A stretch of DNA of 6,847 nucleotides, from the NCBI GenBank assembly GCA_030753015.1, contig JASMDC010000074.1, positions 1-6,847 of the forward strand, in the 5' to 3' direction. Every line of letters begins with the position of its first letter. Positions within the stretch are counted from its first letter, which is position 1. This DNA comes from Candidatus Undinarchaeales archaeon. Lineage in GTDB: Archaea > SpSt-1190 > JASMDC01. A program made the translations under genes and the position numbers. The notes below the pieces were generated by a model. It was not told the DNA's origin. It worked only from the letters and a program-made list of their open reading frames with translations, and made no database searches. Of this stretch, positions 1-6,847 are shown in pieces.

Positions 1-8
1 TCCCCGGC

Positions 9-668
9 ATGGACGAGGTCCCCGCAGAAGCGGCCGCACCAGCCCACGAGGCGATGGCGGTCAGCACCGGTGTCGTCATCGGTGAAGGCGGTGCGCTCAT
101 CACGGCCGGACCGCTCGCCGTTAGCGATGTCTTAGCCCAGGGAGCCCCGGCTGGCGTCGCCATGGCCGCAGAGGCCGAACAGCGGGCCGTAGGCTTCACA
201 CTGGCACCCGAGGAACAGGACCTCCCGCCGGGTTTCGTCAATATCCTCGAGCTCAAGGCCGAGGCGATCGAGGAGGCACTGCACAACCACAGAGCGGACG
301 AGCTCGATCTCCAGGAGAACGTGGCGTGGTGCCTGGCCTTCTTCGAGACCTACCAGCATGTCGAGCGGCGTTGGGTGCTCAACCTGTTGCGGTTATCAGG
401 GCTCGATGAGCGCGTGATCGAGACCGCGGAGCGGGAGTGGATAACGGGCGAGGCCGATGACACCATTAGAGAGCAGGAAGATGCCAGGGCGGCCTTCGAG
501 GGGAACGTAGAGCAGATTGCGGCCTTCCTTGAGGCACATCCCTCGGCGGAAAGGGCCCTGCTGCTCGAAATGCTCAGGAACGCCGGTTACTCGGACGCCG
601 AGATCAACGAGGGCACCAGAAGGCTCATCGTACGCCAGGGCGCCGACAGCGGCGGCGTGATCCTCTAA
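9..668 (+). CDS. Hypothetical protein with duplicated helical motif (possibly 5'-partial)
   Basis: I do not recognise this 219-residue protein. Residues 1-70 are rich in Ala, Gly and Val with no clear hydrophobic anchor, and look like a flexible or low-complexity leader. Residues 75-210 are acidic, Leu/Glu-rich and predicted by eye to be mostly helical. Residues 103-142 and 165-204 align without gaps (offset 62), sharing N-V, A-F-x-E, E-R, L-x-x-L-R and G-x(5)-I positions, so this half is an internal duplication of a helical hairpin-like unit. There is one Cys (108) and no signal peptide. The stop is TAA. Codon use (G/C at third positions) supports coding. No ribosome binding site can be judged because only eight bases precede the ATG, and the frame is open to the window edge, so the true start may lie upstream. 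It is co-directional with the giant repeat gene, but the 108-base gap makes co-transcription uncertain. Function unknown. Confidence 0.75.
   Translation: MDEVPAEAAAPAHEAMAVSTGVVIGEGGALITAGPLAVSDVLAQGAPAGVAMAAEAEQRAVGFTLAPEEQDLPPGFVNILELKAEAIEEALHNHRADELDLQENVAWCLAFFETYQHVERRWVLNLLRLSGLDERVIETAEREWITGEADDTIREQEDARAAFEGNVEQIAAFLEAHPSAERALLLEMLRNAGYSDAEINEGTRRLIVRQGADSGGVIL
315..620 (+). other. Internal duplication within the first gene (two ~40-residue helical motifs)
   Basis: Bases 315-434 (residues 103-142) and 501-620 (residues 165-204) encode two copies of one motif separated by 22 residues. Shared positions include Asn-Val at the start, Ala-Phe-x-Glu, Glu-Arg, Leu-x-x-Leu-Arg, Gly and a late Ile. 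About one third of positions are identical. The copies are too diverged at DNA level to be a recent duplication. The second copy has the helix-turn look of small three-helix domains (R-N-A-G-Y-S-D-A-E-I), but I cannot name the family. Confidence 0.55.
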
Positions 669-754: not shown

Positions 755-767
755 AGGTAGAGGAAGG
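755..767 (+). promoter_or_regulatory. Ribosome binding site for the ATG at 777
   Basis: The purine-rich stretch AGGTAGAGGAAGG lies 9 bases before ATG 777 and contains GAGG and AGG cores complementary to the 16S rRNA tail. It decides for 777 as a usable start. It is partly buried in the inverted repeat 762-787. A second, weaker candidate (GAAGGA, 795-800) stands 9 bases before the in-frame ATG at 810, so both starts remain possible. Confidence 0.5.
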
Positions 768-787
768 TTCGTCCCGATGAACCTTCC
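762..787 (+). promoter_or_regulatory. Perfect 9-bp inverted repeat over the start codon of the giant gene
   Basis: GGAAGGTTC (762-770) is the exact reverse complement of GAACCTTCC (779-787), with an 8-base loop (771-778). In RNA, the left arm takes in the end of the Shine-Dalgarno stretch, and the loop plus the first base of the right arm hold the ATG at 777-779. Such a hairpin could hide the ribosome site. In DNA the same palindrome could be an operator for a dimeric regulator. If the real start is ATG 810, the hairpin would lie in the leader. No T-run follows, so it is not a typical terminator. Confidence 0.6.
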
Positions 788-3700
788 CGTACCCGAAGGA
801 CGCGATACCATGTCGGGCGACAGGAGCTCAGTTGGACTGATGGCTGTCCTAGCCACCGCGCTCCTTCTCGTCCTTGCTGTGGCGACCAACGGGGACATCA
901 AGGTAACAGTGACCGATGAACTGGGGAGCGCCCTACAGGGAGCGACGGTCGAGGTCAAGTGCAACGTCATTGGGGCCACCTACAACGAGCTCTCCGGAAG
1001 CCCGAAGACAGGCGCGTCGGGTTTCGTCGATGGCACTGCCGTCGCCGCGTCGAAGTGCACGAGCGGCGACGATGCCGAAGGAGGCCGTATCCATGTCAGG
1101 ATCACGAAGGACGGTCATAAAAGGAAGACGATCGAGGACGGGGACACGCGATGGTACCCCGACGTGAACCCCAACTCCGTCACGGTCAGTGGGCTCGAGT
1201 ATGCCTACACCATCACGGCTGTCTCGAGCGAGGGGCCTGGGAACGTCCTCACCACCACCCTCTCCGGCCTCTCGGTCGGCGATTCAACGGGCGTGGACGC
1301 GTGCACTCTGAACAGCGGGACCTGGTACTGTCCTGTGACGCTCGCCAACAGTGACGGGACTCTGGTCGCTAGTCCGGCGAAGGACGGGTACGTGCAGGAG
1401 AACTACAACCTGAACACGCAGACGAACCGCGCCGACCACGATTCGGCACAGGCCACATCCACTGTGACCGGTGTCAAGTTCGCCTACAAGATCACGAGCG
1501 TCACTACCGAGACGCTCGCCACGGACCTCACTACGTCCGTCTCGCCGCTCACCGTTGGTGACGCGTCCGGGCAGGATGCCTGCACACTGAGCGGATCGAC
1601 CTGGTATTGCCCGGTGCAGGTCGTGAACAGCAACGTCGCGTCCATCGTGGCGACACCGACACTAGACGGGTACGTCCAGAAGAGCTACAACATCGCAACG
1701 CAGACGACACGGACCACGAACATAGCAAGCCAGGTAACATCAGTCCTTCAGAACGTGCAGTACGCCTTCAAGATAGACACCATCAGCACCGAGACCCTAG
1801 CGACCAATATCGCTGGATCGGTGATCGCCCTCACCGTAGGCGACGACACTGGACAGGACTCCTGCACAAAGAGCGGATCAACGTGGTACTGTCGCGTCCT
1901 CACCGCGAACAGCAACAGCGACGTCAACATGCGGGCGACACCGACGCTCGACGGGTACGTACAGAAGAGCTACTCGCTAGAGACCGGGAACACACGCTCC
2001 TCCAACACGATCGCACAGAGGACTCCGGCCGTATCGAGCATCCTCTATGCTTACAAGATCACCAGCATATCCACCGAGACACTATCCACAAACATCGCGG
2101 GCTCGGTCTCCACGCTCACCGTGGGTGACGCGACAGGTCAGGACTCATGTACAAAGAGCGTGTCTACCTGGTTCTGCCCGGTGCAGGTCGTCAACAGCAA
2201 CGCTGGGTCCATCATCGCAACACCGACGCTCGACGGGTACGTGCAGAAGAGCTACAACATCGGCACACAGACGACACGCACCGCGAACACGGCAAATCAG
2301 GTATCGTCGACCATCGTGAGCATCCAGTACGCCTTCAAGATAGACACAATCACAACAGAGACAATTGGTACCAACATCGCCGATTCGGCGACTGCGCTCA
2401 CCGTAGGTGATGACACTGGACAGGACTCCTGCACAAAGAGCGGGTCCACATGGTTCTGCCCCGTACAGACGGCGAACAGCAACAGCGACGCAAACATGAG
2501 AGCATCCCCCACCCTGGACGGATACGTGCAGAAGAGCTACTCGCTAGCGACCGAGAACACACGCTCGACCCATACCGTCGTACAGAGGGCGCCGGCAGTG
2601 TCGAACGTACAGTACGCCTACAAGATCACGGGCGTCACTACCGAGACGCTCGCCACGGACATCACCACCTCCGTCTCGCCGCTCACCGTCGGCGACGCGA
2701 CAGGACAGGACGCCTGCACACTGAACGGAGCGACCTGGTTCTGTCCGGTGCAGGTCGCGAACAGCAACGCGGGGTCAATCGTGGCGACACCCACACTGGA
2801 CGGGTACGTCCAGAAGAGCTACAACATCGCAACGCAGACGACACGGACCGCGAACACGGCAAATCAGGTCTCATCGACCCTATTGAACGTACAGTACGCC
2901 TTCAAGATAGACACTATCAGCACTGAGACCCTAGCCACCAACATCGCTGGTTCTGTCACTGCCCTCACCGTGGGGGACGCTTCCGGACAGGATTCATGCA
3001 CAAAGAGCGGGTCGACGTGGTACTGTCGCGTCCTCACGGACAACAGCAACAGCGATGCCAACATGCGGGCAACGCCCACTCTCGATGGATACGTGCAGAA
3101 GAGCTATTCGCTACCGGGCGGGAACTCCCGCGGCTCCAATACGATCGCACAGAGGACGCCGGCCGTTTCGAGCGTAGAGTACGCGTTCAAGATAGACACC
3201 ATCACCACTGAGACCTTAGCCACTAACATCGCCGGTTCGTTGACAGCGTTCACAGTGGGGGACGACACGGGGCAGGACTCGTGCACAAAGAGCGGATCAA
3301 CGTGGTTCTGCCCCATACAGACGGCGAACAGCGACTCCGACGCCAACATGCGCGCCACGCCCACCCTCGACGGATACGTACAGAAGAGCTACACACTGCC
3401 GGGCGGGAACACACGCTCATCCGACACGGTCGTACAGAGGACACCTGCTGTATCGAACGTATTGTACGCATACAAGATCACCGGCATCTCCACCGAGACG
3501 CTCGTCGCGGACATCACCACCACCATCTCATCGCTCATCGTTGGCGACGCCACCGGTCAGGACACTTGCACGCGGAGCGGTTCGACCTGGTTCTGCCCTG
3601 TACAGACGGCGAACAGCAACGCCGGATCCATCGTCGCGACGCCGACGCTGGACGGGTATGTACAGAAGAGCTACGACATCGGTACCCAGACGACACGGAC

Positions 3701-6700
3701 CGCGAACACAACCAATCAGGTATCATCGACCCTGTTGAACGTGCAGTACGCGTTCAAGATAGACACCGTCACCACCGAGACCTTGGTCACCAACATCGCC
3801 GGTTCAGCGACAACGCTCACCGTGGGGGACGACACAGCACAGGACTCGTGCACAAAGAGCGGATCTACCTGGTTCTGCCCTGTACAGACGGCGAACAGCA
3901 ACAGCGACGCCAACATGCGGGCAACGCCCACCTTGGATGGATACGTGCAGAAGAGCTACTCGATAGCCACCGGCAATACCCGCGGGTCCAACACAGTGGC
4001 GCAGAAGACCCCGACCGTACCGGACGTCCTATACGCCTACAAGATCACCGGTATCTCAACCGAGACGCTCGCCACGGACATCACCACCGCCGTCTCACCG
4101 CTCACCGTGGGCGATGCGACCGCGCAGGACACGTGCACCAGGAGCGGGTCGAACTGGTACTGCCGCGTCCTCACCGCGAACAGCAACGTCGCACCCATCA
4201 TCGCCACACCCACCCTCGACGGTTACGTACAGAAGAGCTACAACATCGGCACACAGACGACACGCACCGCGGACACCGCCGAACAGGTCACATCTGTCCT
4301 CCAGAACGTACAGTACGCGTTCAAGATAGACACCATTTCGACAGAGACCATCGGTATGAACATCGCCGGCACCCTCACCACGCTCACCGTTGGGGATGAC
4401 ACGGGGCAGGACTCGTGCACAAAGAGCGGATCAACATGGTACTGTCGCGTCCTCACAACGAACAGCGACTCGGACGCCAACATGCGGGCGACGCCCACCC
4501 TCGATGGCTACGTCCAGAAGAGCTACTCGTTGTCAACAGGCAACACTCGCTCATCCAACACGATCGTGCAGAGAACGCCTGCTGTGTCGAGCGTCCTCTA
4601 CGCCTACAAGGTGACCTCCATCACCACCGAGGGTCCTGCCAACGCAATAACGTCTGCCACGACCGCTCTCACCGTTGGCGACGACACTGGACAGGACTCC
4701 TGCACCCGGAGCGGCACGACGTGGTACTGCCCCATCACCATAGCCAACACCAACGGCGCACTTGTGGCCACGCCCACGCTCGAAGGGTACGTCCAGAAAT
4801 CATACGGCCTCACCACTGCCAGCACCCGTGGCTCAAATGATGCCTTGCAGGTGAGCGACACCGTCGCGGGCGTACAGTTCGCTTACAAGATCACCGGAGT
4901 GTCCAGCGAGGGGCCGACCAATGACCTCACAGAATCGCTCGAGGCCCTGGCGGTCGGGGACGTGTCCGGTACGAACGCGTGCACCCTCAACGGCGGTGCC
5001 TGGTACTGCGTCGTGGTCCTGGCCAACAGCGACCAGACGCTCATCGCCAGACCCACCAAGGACGGCTACGTCCTCGCCAGCTATAATATAGGTACGCCGA
5101 CCACCCGCGGCGCCAACACCGCCGCGCAGGTGACCTCCACGGTGGCGGGGATCAAGTTCGCCTACAAGATCACCGACGTCACCGCAGAGGGCCCCACCAC
5201 CGACCTCACCAGCACCCTCGCATCCCTTTCCCTCGGCGACACCACCGGGCAGTCCACATGCCAGCTCAACGGTGGTGCATGGTACTGTCCCGCCATCCTC
5301 GCCAACAGCGACCAGACTCTTGTTGCATCGCCCGCCCTGGACGGGTACGTGCAGAAGTCCTACGACCTCACCACAGGCAACACTCGCGCCGGTCACTCCA
5401 CCGCCCAGGTCGTCGACACAGTCGCTGGTGTCCAGTACGCCTTCAAGATAGACACCGTCACCACTGAGACGATCGGCACCAACATCGCGGGCTCGCTCAC
5501 CGGGCTCGCCGTGGGGGACGACAGCGCTCAGGACTCGTGCACTAAGAGCGGATCGACCTGGTACTGCCGTGTCCTCACAACGAACAGCAACTCGGACTCT
5601 AACATGCGAACCATCCCCACGCTGGACGGGTACGTGCAGAAGAGCCACCCGTTACCTACGGGGAACGCGCGCTCGACGAACACGATCGCACAGAGGACGC
5701 CTACGGTCGACGACGTCCTCTACACCTACAAGATCACCGGTATCTCCACCGAGACGATCGCCGCGGACATCACGACCTCGGTCTCGCCGCTCACCGTGGG
5801 CGACGCGTCCGGCCAGAACACATGCACGAGGAGCGGTTCGACCTGGTACTGCCCCGTACAGACCACGAACAGCAACGCCGGGTCCATCATCGCCACACCG
5901 ACGCTCGACGGCTACGTCCAGAAGAGCTACAACATCGGCACACAGACGACACGCACCGCGAACACTGCCAACCAGATCACGTCGGCCCTCCAGAACGTCC
6001 AGTACGCCTACAAGATCACCAGCGTCACTGCCGAGGGACCCGGCACCGGTCTCACGAGCTCGCTCACCTCTCTCGTCATCGGCGACGGATCGGGACAGGA
6101 CGCGTGTATGCTCAGTAGCGGTGATTGGTACTGCTCCGTCCGGACCGCCTACTCCGACCAGACACCCCTGTTCGCCCGCCCGACCAAGGACGGGTACGTC
6201 CTCGCTAACTATAATATCGGTGCCCAGACCACCCGCTCGGTGAACACGGCGGCACAGGTGGCCACCACGGTGAGCGATGTCAGGTTCACTTTCACGGTCA
6301 CCAGCGTCACGACCGAGGGGCCTGGCACAGCACTTACCTCATCGATCACCACGATGACCGTGGGCGATGAAACGGGAAAGGACGCCTGCCTGCTGAACGG
6401 TGGCGCATGGTACTGCCCGGTGCTGCTCGCCAACAGCGACGGGACGCTCAAGGTCAGGCCCGTAAAGGACGGGTACGTGGAGGAGGACCACACGTACACA
6501 GGGGCAGGGACAAGGACGGCGTACGACGCTGCCCAGTCCACCGGTACCGTCGCCGGCTTCCGCTTCTCCTACACCGTCCAAGTCGAGGATCAGCGCACTA
6601 CTGCGGGCCCCGTGACGGTCGCTGCCGTTACCGCCGGGGCCAGCGACGTGGGCTGCACGTTCAACGTGGACCGGTACTACTGTCCGATCGTGCTGGCCGA

Positions 6701-6847
6701 TGATACGGGGGCCGATGCGGACGTGGATGCAGCGAAGGCAGGCTACGTCACAACTCACTGGGACACCGCACTCGCCGCCGGCCGCACACAGCACACCGAC
6801 TCACCTCTTGCGGTCACCGTTACCGACATGCCCTTCGCGCAGAAGCT
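777..6847 (+). CDS. Giant secreted tandem beta-domain repeat protein (3'-partial)
   Basis: One frame runs from ATG 777 to the window edge with no stop: 2023 complete codons, C-terminus not seen. ATG 777 has a good ribosome site. ATG 810 is an in-frame alternative that gives a more compact signal peptide (M-S-G-D-R, then a hydrophobic run, then A-V-A). Layout, numbered from 777: hydrophobic export signal 18-36; carboxypeptidase-regulatory-like/CnaB-like domain about 37-141; 20 full tandem units of 90-95 residues at 142-2019; a 21st begins at 2020. Each unit has an aromatic-Ala-aromatic-Lys-like start, a central V-G-D (lost in unit 20), a Cys-x8-Cys pair ending W-Y/F-C or Y-Y-C, and a GYV turn. 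Together with the two cysteines of the first domain, 42 cysteines are present, all pairable, which fits an oxidising extracellular location. It is Thr/Ser/Asn-rich, with no catalytic motif and no S-layer-homology, dockerin or sorting signal in the visible part. Likely an adhesin, fibre or stalk protein (inference). Confidence 0.93.
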   Translation, partial: MNLPVPEGRDTMSGDRSSVGLMAVLATALLLVLAVATNGDIKVTVTDELGSALQGATVEVKCNVIGATYNELSGSPKTGASGFVDGTAVAASKCTSGDDAEGGRIHVRITKDGHKRKTIEDGDTRWYPDVNPNSVTVSGLEYAYTITAVSSEGPGNVLTTTLSGLSVGDSTGVDACTLNSGTWYCPVTLANSDGTLVASPAKDGYVQENYNLNTQTNRADHDSAQATSTVTGVKFAYKITSVTTETLATDLTTSVSPLTVGDASGQDACTLSGSTWYCPVQVVNSNVASIVATPTLDGYVQKSYNIATQTTRTTNIASQVTSVLQNVQYAFKIDTISTETLATNIAGSVIALTVGDDTGQDSCTKSGSTWYCRVLTANSNSDVNMRATPTLDGYVQKSYSLETGNTRSSNTIAQRTPAVSSILYAYKITSISTETLSTNIAGSVSTLTVGDATGQDSCTKSVSTWFCPVQVVNSNAGSIIATPTLDGYVQKSYNIGTQTTRTANTANQVSSTIVSIQYAFKIDTITTETIGTNIADSATALTVGDDTGQDSCTKSGSTWFCPVQTANSNSDANMRASPTLDGYVQKSYSLATENTRSTHTVVQRAPAVSNVQYAYKITGVTTETLATDITTSVSPLTVGDATGQDACTLNGATWFCPVQVANSNAGSIVATPTLDGYVQKSYNIATQTTRTANTANQVSSTLLNVQYAFKIDTISTETLATNIAGSVTALTVGDASGQDSCTKSGSTWYCRVLTDNSNSDANMRATPTLDGYVQKSYSLPGGNSRGSNTIAQRTPAVSSVEYAFKIDTITTETLATNIAGSLTAFTVGDDTGQDSCTKSGSTWFCPIQTANSDSDANMRATPTLDGYVQKSYTLPGGNTRSSDTVVQRTPAVSNVLYAYKITGISTETLVADITTTISSLIVGDATGQDTCTRSGSTWFCPVQTANSNAGSIVATPTLDGYVQKSYDIGTQTTRTANTTNQVSSTLLNVQYAFKIDTVTTETLVTNIAGSATTLTVGDDTAQDSCTKSGSTWFCPVQTANSNSDANMRATPTLDGYVQKSYSIATGNTRGSNTVAQKTPTVPDVLYAYKITGISTETLATDITTAVSPLTVGDATAQDTCTRSGSNWYCRVLTANSNVAPIIATPTLDGYVQKSYNIGTQTTRTADTAEQVTSVLQNVQYAFKIDTISTETIGMNIAGTLTTLTVGDDTGQDSCTKSGSTWYCRVLTTNSDSDANMRATPTLDGYVQKSYSLSTGNTRSSNTIVQRTPAVSSVLYAYKVTSITTEGPANAITSATTALTVGDDTGQDSCTRSGTTWYCPITIANTNGALVATPTLEGYVQKSYGLTTASTRGSNDALQVSDTVAGVQFAYKITGVSSEGPTNDLTESLEALAVGDVSGTNACTLNGGAWYCVVVLANSDQTLIARPTKDGYVLASYNIGTPTTRGANTAAQVTSTVAGIKFAYKITDVTAEGPTTDLTSTLASLSLGDTTGQSTCQLNGGAWYCPAILANSDQTLVASPALDGYVQKSYDLTTGNTRAGHSTAQVVDTVAGVQYAFKIDTVTTETIGTNIAGSLTGLAVGDDSAQDSCTKSGSTWYCRVLTTNSNSDSNMRTIPTLDGYVQKSHPLPTGNARSTNTIAQRTPTVDDVLYTYKITGISTETIAADITTSVSPLTVGDASGQNTCTRSGSTWYCPVQTTNSNAGSIIATPTLDGYVQKSYNIGTQTTRTANTANQITSALQNVQYAYKITSVTAEGPGTGLTSSLTSLVIGDGSGQDACMLSSGDWYCSVRTAYSDQTPLFARPTKDGYVLANYNIGAQTTRSVNTAAQVATTVSDVRFTFTVTSVTTEGPGTALTSSITTMTVGDETGKDACLLNGGAWYCPVLLANSDGTLKVRPVKDGYVEEDHTYTGAGTRTAYDAAQSTGTVAGFRFSYTVQVEDQRTTAGPVTVAAVTAGASDVGCTFNVDRYYCPIVLADDTGADADVDAAKAGYVTTHWDTALAAGRTQHTDSPLAVTVTDMPFAQK
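810..884 (+). other. N-terminal export signal of the giant protein
   Basis: Residues 12-36 (from ATG 777) contain a short polar n-region with one arginine, then an uninterrupted hydrophobic core (L-M-A-V-L-A-T-A-L-L-L-V-L-A-V-A). A-V-A followed by T-N fits a signal peptidase I cleavage site (Ala at -3 and -1). The weak positive charge before the core means an uncleaved membrane anchor or a pilin-like leader cannot be excluded. No prepilin Gly-Phe-Thr motif is present. Confidence 0.75.
885..1199 (+). other. Carboxypeptidase-regulatory-like / CnaB-like domain ('unit 0')
   Basis: Residues 37-141 begin I-K-V-T-V-T-D-E-L-G, then A-L-Q-G-A-T-V-E-V and a T-G-A-S-G-F turn. This is the usual strand order of the carboxypeptidase regulatory-like beta-sandwich (G-x-x-L-x-G-A-x-V-x-V, then T-x-x-x-G). 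It ends with H-V-R-I-T-K-D-G-H and a closing strand S-V-T-V-S-G-L-E. The distance from Cys94 to the K-D-G motif (17 residues) equals that from the second cysteine to K-D-G in unit 1, and the closing strand resembles unit ends (T-S-T-V-T-G-V-K). It is therefore probably a divergent relative of the repeats. Its first cysteine (62) is much farther from the second than in the repeats. Confidence 0.6.
1200..1478 (+). repeat. Unit 1, class C (array entry)
   Basis: This 93-residue unit (142-234) has the class C signature S-S-E-G-P near the start, C-T-L-N-S-G-T-W-Y-C, then L-A-N-S-D-G-T-L and A-K-D-G-Y-V. It resembles units 14, 15 and 19 more than its immediate neighbour, as expected for an edge unit left outside later core duplications. 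Confidence 0.85.
1479..4598 (+). repeat. Units 2-12, alternating A/B core
   Basis: Eleven units alternate between class A (94 residues; Y-A-Y-K-I-T start, T-Q-T-T-R-T middle, N-V-Q end; units 2, 4, 6, 9, 11) and class B (95 residues; Y-A-F-K-I-D start, N-S-D-A-N-M-R-A loop, Q-R-T-P-A-V end; units 3, 5, 7, 8, 10, 12). Successive A starts (1479, 2046, 2613, then 3465, 4032) and B starts (1761, 2328, 2895, then 3180, 3747, 4314) are exactly 567 bases apart within each run. Units 7 and 8 are both B, which breaks the alternation. All units share D-G-Y-V-Q-K-S-Y with Lys-Ser always encoded AAG AGC. Confidence 0.9.
4599..4877 (+). repeat. Unit 13, mixed A/B-C transition unit
   Basis: This 93-residue unit joins class C traits (T-T-E-G-P at the start, A-N-T-N-G-A-L loop of class C length, V-A-G-V-Q end) to core traits (L-T-V-G-D-D-T-G-Q-D-S-C, V-Q-K-S-Y). 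It has E-G-Y-V instead of D-G-Y-V, and its Lys-Ser codons are AAA TCA rather than the AAG AGC of the core. It marks the right edge of the A/B core. Confidence 0.8.
4878..5435 (+). repeat. Units 14-15, class C pair
   Basis: Two 93-residue units (start codons at 4878 and 5157) with F-A-Y-K-I-T, E-G-P-T, L-N-G-G-A-W-Y-C and L-A-N-S-D-Q-T-L. Unit 14 keeps T-K-D-G-Y-V-L-A. Unit 15 ends core-like (A-L-D-G-Y-V-Q-K-S-Y), so its second half may derive from an A/B unit. Confidence 0.85.
5436..6002 (+). repeat. Units 16-17, displaced B-A dimer
   Basis: A 95-residue B unit followed by a 94-residue A unit, together exactly 567 bases, sits between class C units 15 and 18. Unit 16 has Y-A-F-K-I-D with the ATA Ile codon of all B units and C-R-V-L-T. 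Unit 17 has T-Q-T-T-R-T-A-N and Y-T-Y-K in place of Y-A-Y-K. The pair looks like a copy of the core dimer placed within class C sequence. Confidence 0.85.
6003..6563 (+). repeat. Units 18-19, class C-like
   Basis: Unit 18 (94 residues) has T-A-E-G-P-G-T and T-K-D-G-Y-V-L-A-N-Y-N-I-G, close to unit 14. Its post-cysteine loop is one residue longer than other C units. Unit 19 (93 residues) starts F-T-F-T-V-T, losing the Lys, and has L-N-G-G-A-W-Y-C-P-V-L-L-A-N-S-D-G-T-L like unit 1, then V-K-D-G-Y-V-E-E-D-H. Divergence grows toward the end of the array. Confidence 0.85.
6564..6847 (+). repeat. Unit 20 (divergent) and start of unit 21
   Basis: Unit 20 (90 residues) keeps Cys-x8-Cys (C-T-F-N-V-D-R-Y-Y-C), P-I-V-L-A and a G-Y-V turn, but it lacks V-G-D, has Y-Y-C for W-Y-C, A-G-Y-V for D-G-Y-V, and an Asp/Ala-rich loop. 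The window ends five residues into the next unit (F-A-Q-K-L), so the array or a related domain continues to the right. Confidence 0.75.

Follow-up and report, generated by a model that had tools for sequence, protein, structure and literature searches.

The window, a stretch of 6,847 nucleotides, is the entire contig C89 of a MAG (G000) of 3.85 Mb and 117 contigs. On the forward strand a stop-free frame of 2023 codons runs from 777 to 6845 and is ended by the 3′ contig edge, so that its length is a lower bound. The encoded giant protein comprises a hydrophobic signal segment at about residues 20-36, a single N-terminal domain (residues 37-141) and a tandem array; apart from the signal segment, hydropathy revealed no second TM-like stretch in the visible 2023 residues. 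A re-check of ORF, signal and units found the coordinates and motifs of the initial annotation correct, and its single-gene reading is right in that there is one stop-free frame, which is incomplete at the 3′ end. The features of the window are listed below.

3..668, +, C-terminal part of an upstream surface protein whose frame is already open where the contig begins; homologue of the cytoplasmic tail of a protein on contig C76
720..729, +, A/T-rich, TATA-like (archaeal) stretch ctaaataaac upstream of the giant gene; weak, by eye
760..767, +, SD-like purine-rich gaggaagg preceding ATG 777 (alternative start, ATG 810)
777..6845, +, gene of the giant repeat protein; 2023 codons or more, running off the contig
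810..884, +, signal sequence (MSGDRSSVGLMAVLATALLLVLAVA), by hydropathy
885..1199, +, single N-terminal domain (GDIKVTVTDELGSALQGATVEVKC...)
1200..1478, +, unit 1
1479..1760, +, unit 2 (type A)
1761..2045, +, unit 3 (type B)
2046..2327, +, unit 4 (type A)
2328..2612, +, unit 5 (type B)
2613..2894, +, unit 6 (type A)
2895..3179, +, unit 7 (type B)
3180..3464, +, unit 8 (type B)
3465..3746, +, unit 9 (type A)
3747..4031, +, unit 10 (type B)
4032..4313, +, unit 11 (type A)
4314..4598, +, unit 12 (type B)
4599..4877, +, unit 13
4878..5156, +, unit 14
5157..5435, +, unit 15
5436..5720, +, unit 16 (type B)
5721..6002, +, unit 17 (type A)
6003..6284, +, unit 18
6285..6563, +, unit 19
6564..6845, +, unit 20, diverged; FAQK at its end resembles the start of one more unit
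6771..6847, +, last 77 bases, the same as those that end contig C94, apparently a common assembly k-mer where both contigs break

The repeat array and its genomic setting

The array consists of 20 tandem units of 93-95 residues each, 19 canonical and one diverged (unit 20), with starts running from residue 142 to residue 1930. Units 1-19 have in common a V/I/L-G-D box, a Cys-x8-Cys pair ending W-Y/F-C and, mostly, a D-G-Y-V signature, while the VGD box is missing from unit 20, which reads YYC/AGYV. Any two of units 1-19 are 34-88% identical, and unit 20 is 17-33% identical to the others. The giant protein has exactly 20 Cys-x8-Cys motifs and 42 cysteines in all, the two outside the motifs lying in the N-terminal domain. 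Of 65 aligned copies 61 retain the pair, and three of the other four have lost both cysteines. In AlphaFold2 models the strand register of a predicted hairpin sets the two cysteines of a unit opposite each other, and one Cys-x8-Cys disulfide probably staples each unit across this β-hairpin. The signal segment, the 20 units and their 20 cysteine pairs thus support the earlier description of an exported giant repeat protein with paired cysteines.

At the DNA level the array is seen by TRF only at period 285 with a match of 67%, which indicates an old, diverged protein repeat rather than a recent DNA duplication. NG86 estimates on 14 unit pairs gave dN/dS values of 0.09-0.37 at dS of 0.3-1.5; the units are therefore old and kept by purifying selection, and these values are not those of a chance frame. 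Beneath the array, ORFs of 80-370 aa in antisense or other frames were set aside as probable by-products of repeated GC-rich codons.

A second array fills contig C94 (5022 bp; L014 2-5020), where one stop-free frame carries 17 complete units and one partial unit homologous to the window array. The 77 bases common to both contigs look like an assembly k-mer, at which C89 and C94 would enter one common continuation. In the unit tree, cross-contig pairs follow position at the end of the arrays (u19 with c16, u20 with c17), other pairs being u18 with c7 and u15 with c13, and the alternating A/B units 2-12 and 16-17 represent an expansion found only in the window copy. The two arrays are either alleles of two strains or two paralogues. 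That the array is instead an artefact of metagenome assembly or binning is highly improbable: the same 77-mer at the end of both contigs, a MAG contamination of 5% and the atypical tetranucleotide profile of the array would fit such an origin, but the frame stays open across diverged units with the dN/dS values given above, positional homologues link units of C89 and C94, homologues of the upstream ORF and of single units lie on further contigs of the MAG, and branching between strains or paralogues accounts for the common 77-base end.

The MAG is archaeal, with a TFIIB-type zinc-ribbon protein encoded on contig C40 (read from its sequence); a 16S search of the MAG found none. Its size contrasts with the 0.6-1.1 Mb of nine class-mates, meaning that either the genome has truly expanded or several strains were merged, and it contains many ORFs above 1000 aa for surface proteins. 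The C76 protein with the tail homologous to window 3-668 is a TM-anchored, CGDGTC-rich surface protein; the window tail itself displays two helical-looking repeats and a weak RecX-like match, and no family could be assigned to it. A related CGDGTC-rich protein on contig C47 breaks off at the contig end just past its TM segment and carries one unit. Adjacency of C47 and C89, which have no common overlap, was a guess only and was dropped. C47 also encodes a Cys-rich, apparently secreted protein of 1501 aa (L061 2922-7424) with a WD40 β-propeller (E 3e-23). In the surface proteins at L061 8972-12622 and L015 12000-15638 a long poly-Ser tract is followed by many CGDGTC repeats and a TM segment near the C-terminus.

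Homologues of the unit in other genomes

An initial profile search covering 60 related genomes matched the MAG itself alone; viral contigs, phages and plasmids yielded no relatives, and the literature search turned up no description of the unit. A degenerate-pattern scan of 84,980 genomes revealed one relative, encoded on contig MFUQ01000020.1 of Ca. Nomurabacteria. This signal-bearing protein of 1670 aa contains 12 homologous copies (i-E down to 7e-34) adjoining Big_5 domains, the copies being of two kinds, long (window-like) and short (86-90 residues). Similar to the window protein, it presents a signal sequence, the Cys pair and a related N-terminal domain (32% identity), and its long units are ~52% identical to those of C94. 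It differs in being bacterial and in mixing long and short units ahead of Big_5 Ig domains. The contig also encodes bacterial-type LepA, valyl-tRNA synthetase-like and Hsp20-like genes, as read from their translations, and because of these neighbours it is unlikely to be a mis-binned archaeal contig. In a midpoint-rooted tree the long units from the two organisms fall into a single clade (100/100), those of Nomurabacteria being basal.

With a mixed profile, single copies were detected in giant surface proteins of a class-mate of the MAG (G002), on the MAG's own C47 and, among 382 further genomes from the class of Nomurabacteria (Patescibacteria), in 10. Several Patescibacteria genomes encode a surface protein of ~540 aa (L049-L058) with one short unit and a Pro/Thr linker; in some of these proteins the C-terminal repeats look SH3-type. 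The unit, for which the initial annotation had proposed a profile search, is thus no orphan, having homologues in G002, on C47 and in a bacterial epibiont lineage (Nomurabacteria and further Patescibacteria), although no curated domain family matches it.

Family and predicted fold

No family in the curated libraries (Pfam, NCBIfam, PDB sequences) covers the unit, and to that extent it is unassigned, as initially described; shorter homologues elsewhere nevertheless lead to the carboxypeptidase-regulatory, or transthyretin-like, β-sandwich. Weak Pfam, NCBIfam and PHROGs rows obtained with the entire repeat protein (MOV-10_N, DUF2115, phrog_6462 and others) were rejected as summed sub-threshold repeat hits with no passing stretch. 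Neither Big_5 nor any other named bacterial Ig-like Pfam family matches within the units, Big_5 lying only outside them in the Nomurabacteria protein. Profile-profile alignment (hhalign) of long with short units gave a probability of 98.4 and an E of 1e-14 over 83 columns, and by this sequence comparison their relatedness is beyond reasonable doubt. Short units aligned in register with 27 archaeal PF13620 domains (score 28.2, probability 67, columns 8-68 on 3-64), against a control in which 99 of 100 column shuffles scored at most 14.2, the remaining one being a 3-column artefact. The signal arises independently in the Nomurabacteria and G002 copies; the window long units alone reached a probability below 1, and the Patescibacteria singles alone gave no signal. 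At the Pfam cut-off of PF13620 (32.3 bits) the window protein has no match, single short copies score 14-19 bits, and the best natural copies, with E of 0.0016-0.05, stay below threshold. A hand-shaped consensus scored better (E 1.7e-4, 22.3 bits) but was discounted, as objective majority consensuses gave no match and a reversed control hit a different family at E 0.0027.

PF13620 (CarboxypepD_reg) and the short copies have the same strand layout and motif order, V-x-DE-L-G...GATV...T-x-G-x-Y...GY. In contrast, the units add the hairpin disulfide, the window has 20 copies in tandem, and the long units contain a 7-8 residue insertion, an invariant GD and a conserved Trp.

The structure prediction of adjacent units envisaged at the outset was carried out with AlphaFold2 and returned a β-rich tandem for two window units (mean pLDDT 74), which several β-sandwich families match about equally (best Z 5.9). 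For the model of two short units (mean pLDDT 66), carboxypeptidase transthyretin-like domains take the top four places among the PDB matches with Z of 7.5-7.7, including 5aq0 (Z 7.7, rmsd of 2.5 over 80 residues); confidence in both models is moderate and every fold-match Z lies below 8. A transthyretin-like β-sandwich is the probable fold of the unit, an assignment with good if indirect support. Since homologous short copies lead there by both profile-profile and fold comparison, the unit is better called a divergent branch of the known carboxypeptidase-regulatory/transthyretin-like superfamily.

The top PDB matches of the window-unit model are CBM20 of glucoamylase and CGTase (Z 5.0-5.9), as would be expected if the units were starch-binding or CBM-like β-sandwiches that capture ligands or polysaccharides rather than forming a passive stalk. 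We regard such a role as quite unlikely: Z values of 5-6 can be expected between unrelated proteins, the short-unit model favours the carboxypeptidase domains, no CBM family is matched in sequence, and the frame contains no enzyme.

Sequon depletion and candidate role at the cell surface

The 37 units of both arrays (window 1200-6845 and C94) contain one N-x-S/T sequon against 33.8 expected from shuffling residues column by column (lowest of 500 shuffles, 23); as the units are kin, these counts overstate how many events are effectively independent. In both arrays the reversed motif and N-[ST] with a spacing of 1, 3 or 4 are at or near their expected counts; within type A or type B alone the lack of sequons is not significant. 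The Nomurabacteria units display no sequon deficit, in contrast with the archaeal arrays. The same genome encodes STT3/AglB (match over cut-off), and several of its other surface ORFs are sequon-enriched (e.g. 14 vs 6.2, 11 vs 5.2).

Archaeal S-layer proteins usually have repeated β-sandwich domains and are usually glycosylated. The giant protein would resemble them in the former respect, and the S. acidocaldarius SlaA/SlaB assembly (8qox_B, Z 7.3) is among the matches of the short-unit model. A laterally polymerising S-layer or sheath component is nonetheless unlikely, as long tandem arrays that differ in unit make-up between C89 and C94 are ill-suited to a lattice of fixed spacing, and the near absence of sequons runs against the usual glycosylation.

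In keeping with the adhesin, stalk or fibre role suggested in the initial annotation, which is plausible, we consider it probable that the protein is an exported cell-surface stalk or adhesin built of head-to-tail, disulfide-stapled transthyretin-like β-sandwiches. The product would be exported to the archaeal cell surface through its signal sequence, each 93-95 residue unit folding as a small carboxypeptidase-regulatory-like β-sandwich with a hairpin disulfide. With units head to tail, the length of the array would determine how far the protein reaches, and duplication events involving blocks of one or two units would lengthen or shorten it. The anchor would sit in a distal or C-terminal part beyond C89, and the unglycosylated chain would reach out from the cell and mediate contact. 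By analogy, this mechanism may be likened to that of giant archaeal surface proteins such as SPEARE of Nanohaloarchaeota, which combine protease, laminin-G, toxin-like and restriction-endonuclease domains with a C-terminal TM anchor (PMC6642349). Both would be very long, extracytoplasmic proteins of small archaea with adhesion-type β domains. The visible part of the window protein differs in containing none of SPEARE's enzyme, toxin or laminin-G domains and no TM anchor, and a Pfam search of its 2023 residues, the C-terminus lying beyond the contig, found no SPEARE-type domain.

More tentatively, the long unit could be a distinct surface module of an archaeal lineage and Patescibacteria, spread by cross-domain transfer between surface neighbours, whose archaeal copies are kept free of N-glycans by anti-sequon selection so that bare β-sandwiches can stack or bind along the stalk; we hold this extended proposal to be possible but doubtful.

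An almost sequon-free exported archaeal protein beside sequon-enriched neighbours offers a simple, testable clue to the role of its surface. Small archaea and Patescibacteria may attach to partners by means of giant surface proteins, and such proteins become findable once their unit has a name, a fold, a profile and a cross-domain distribution.
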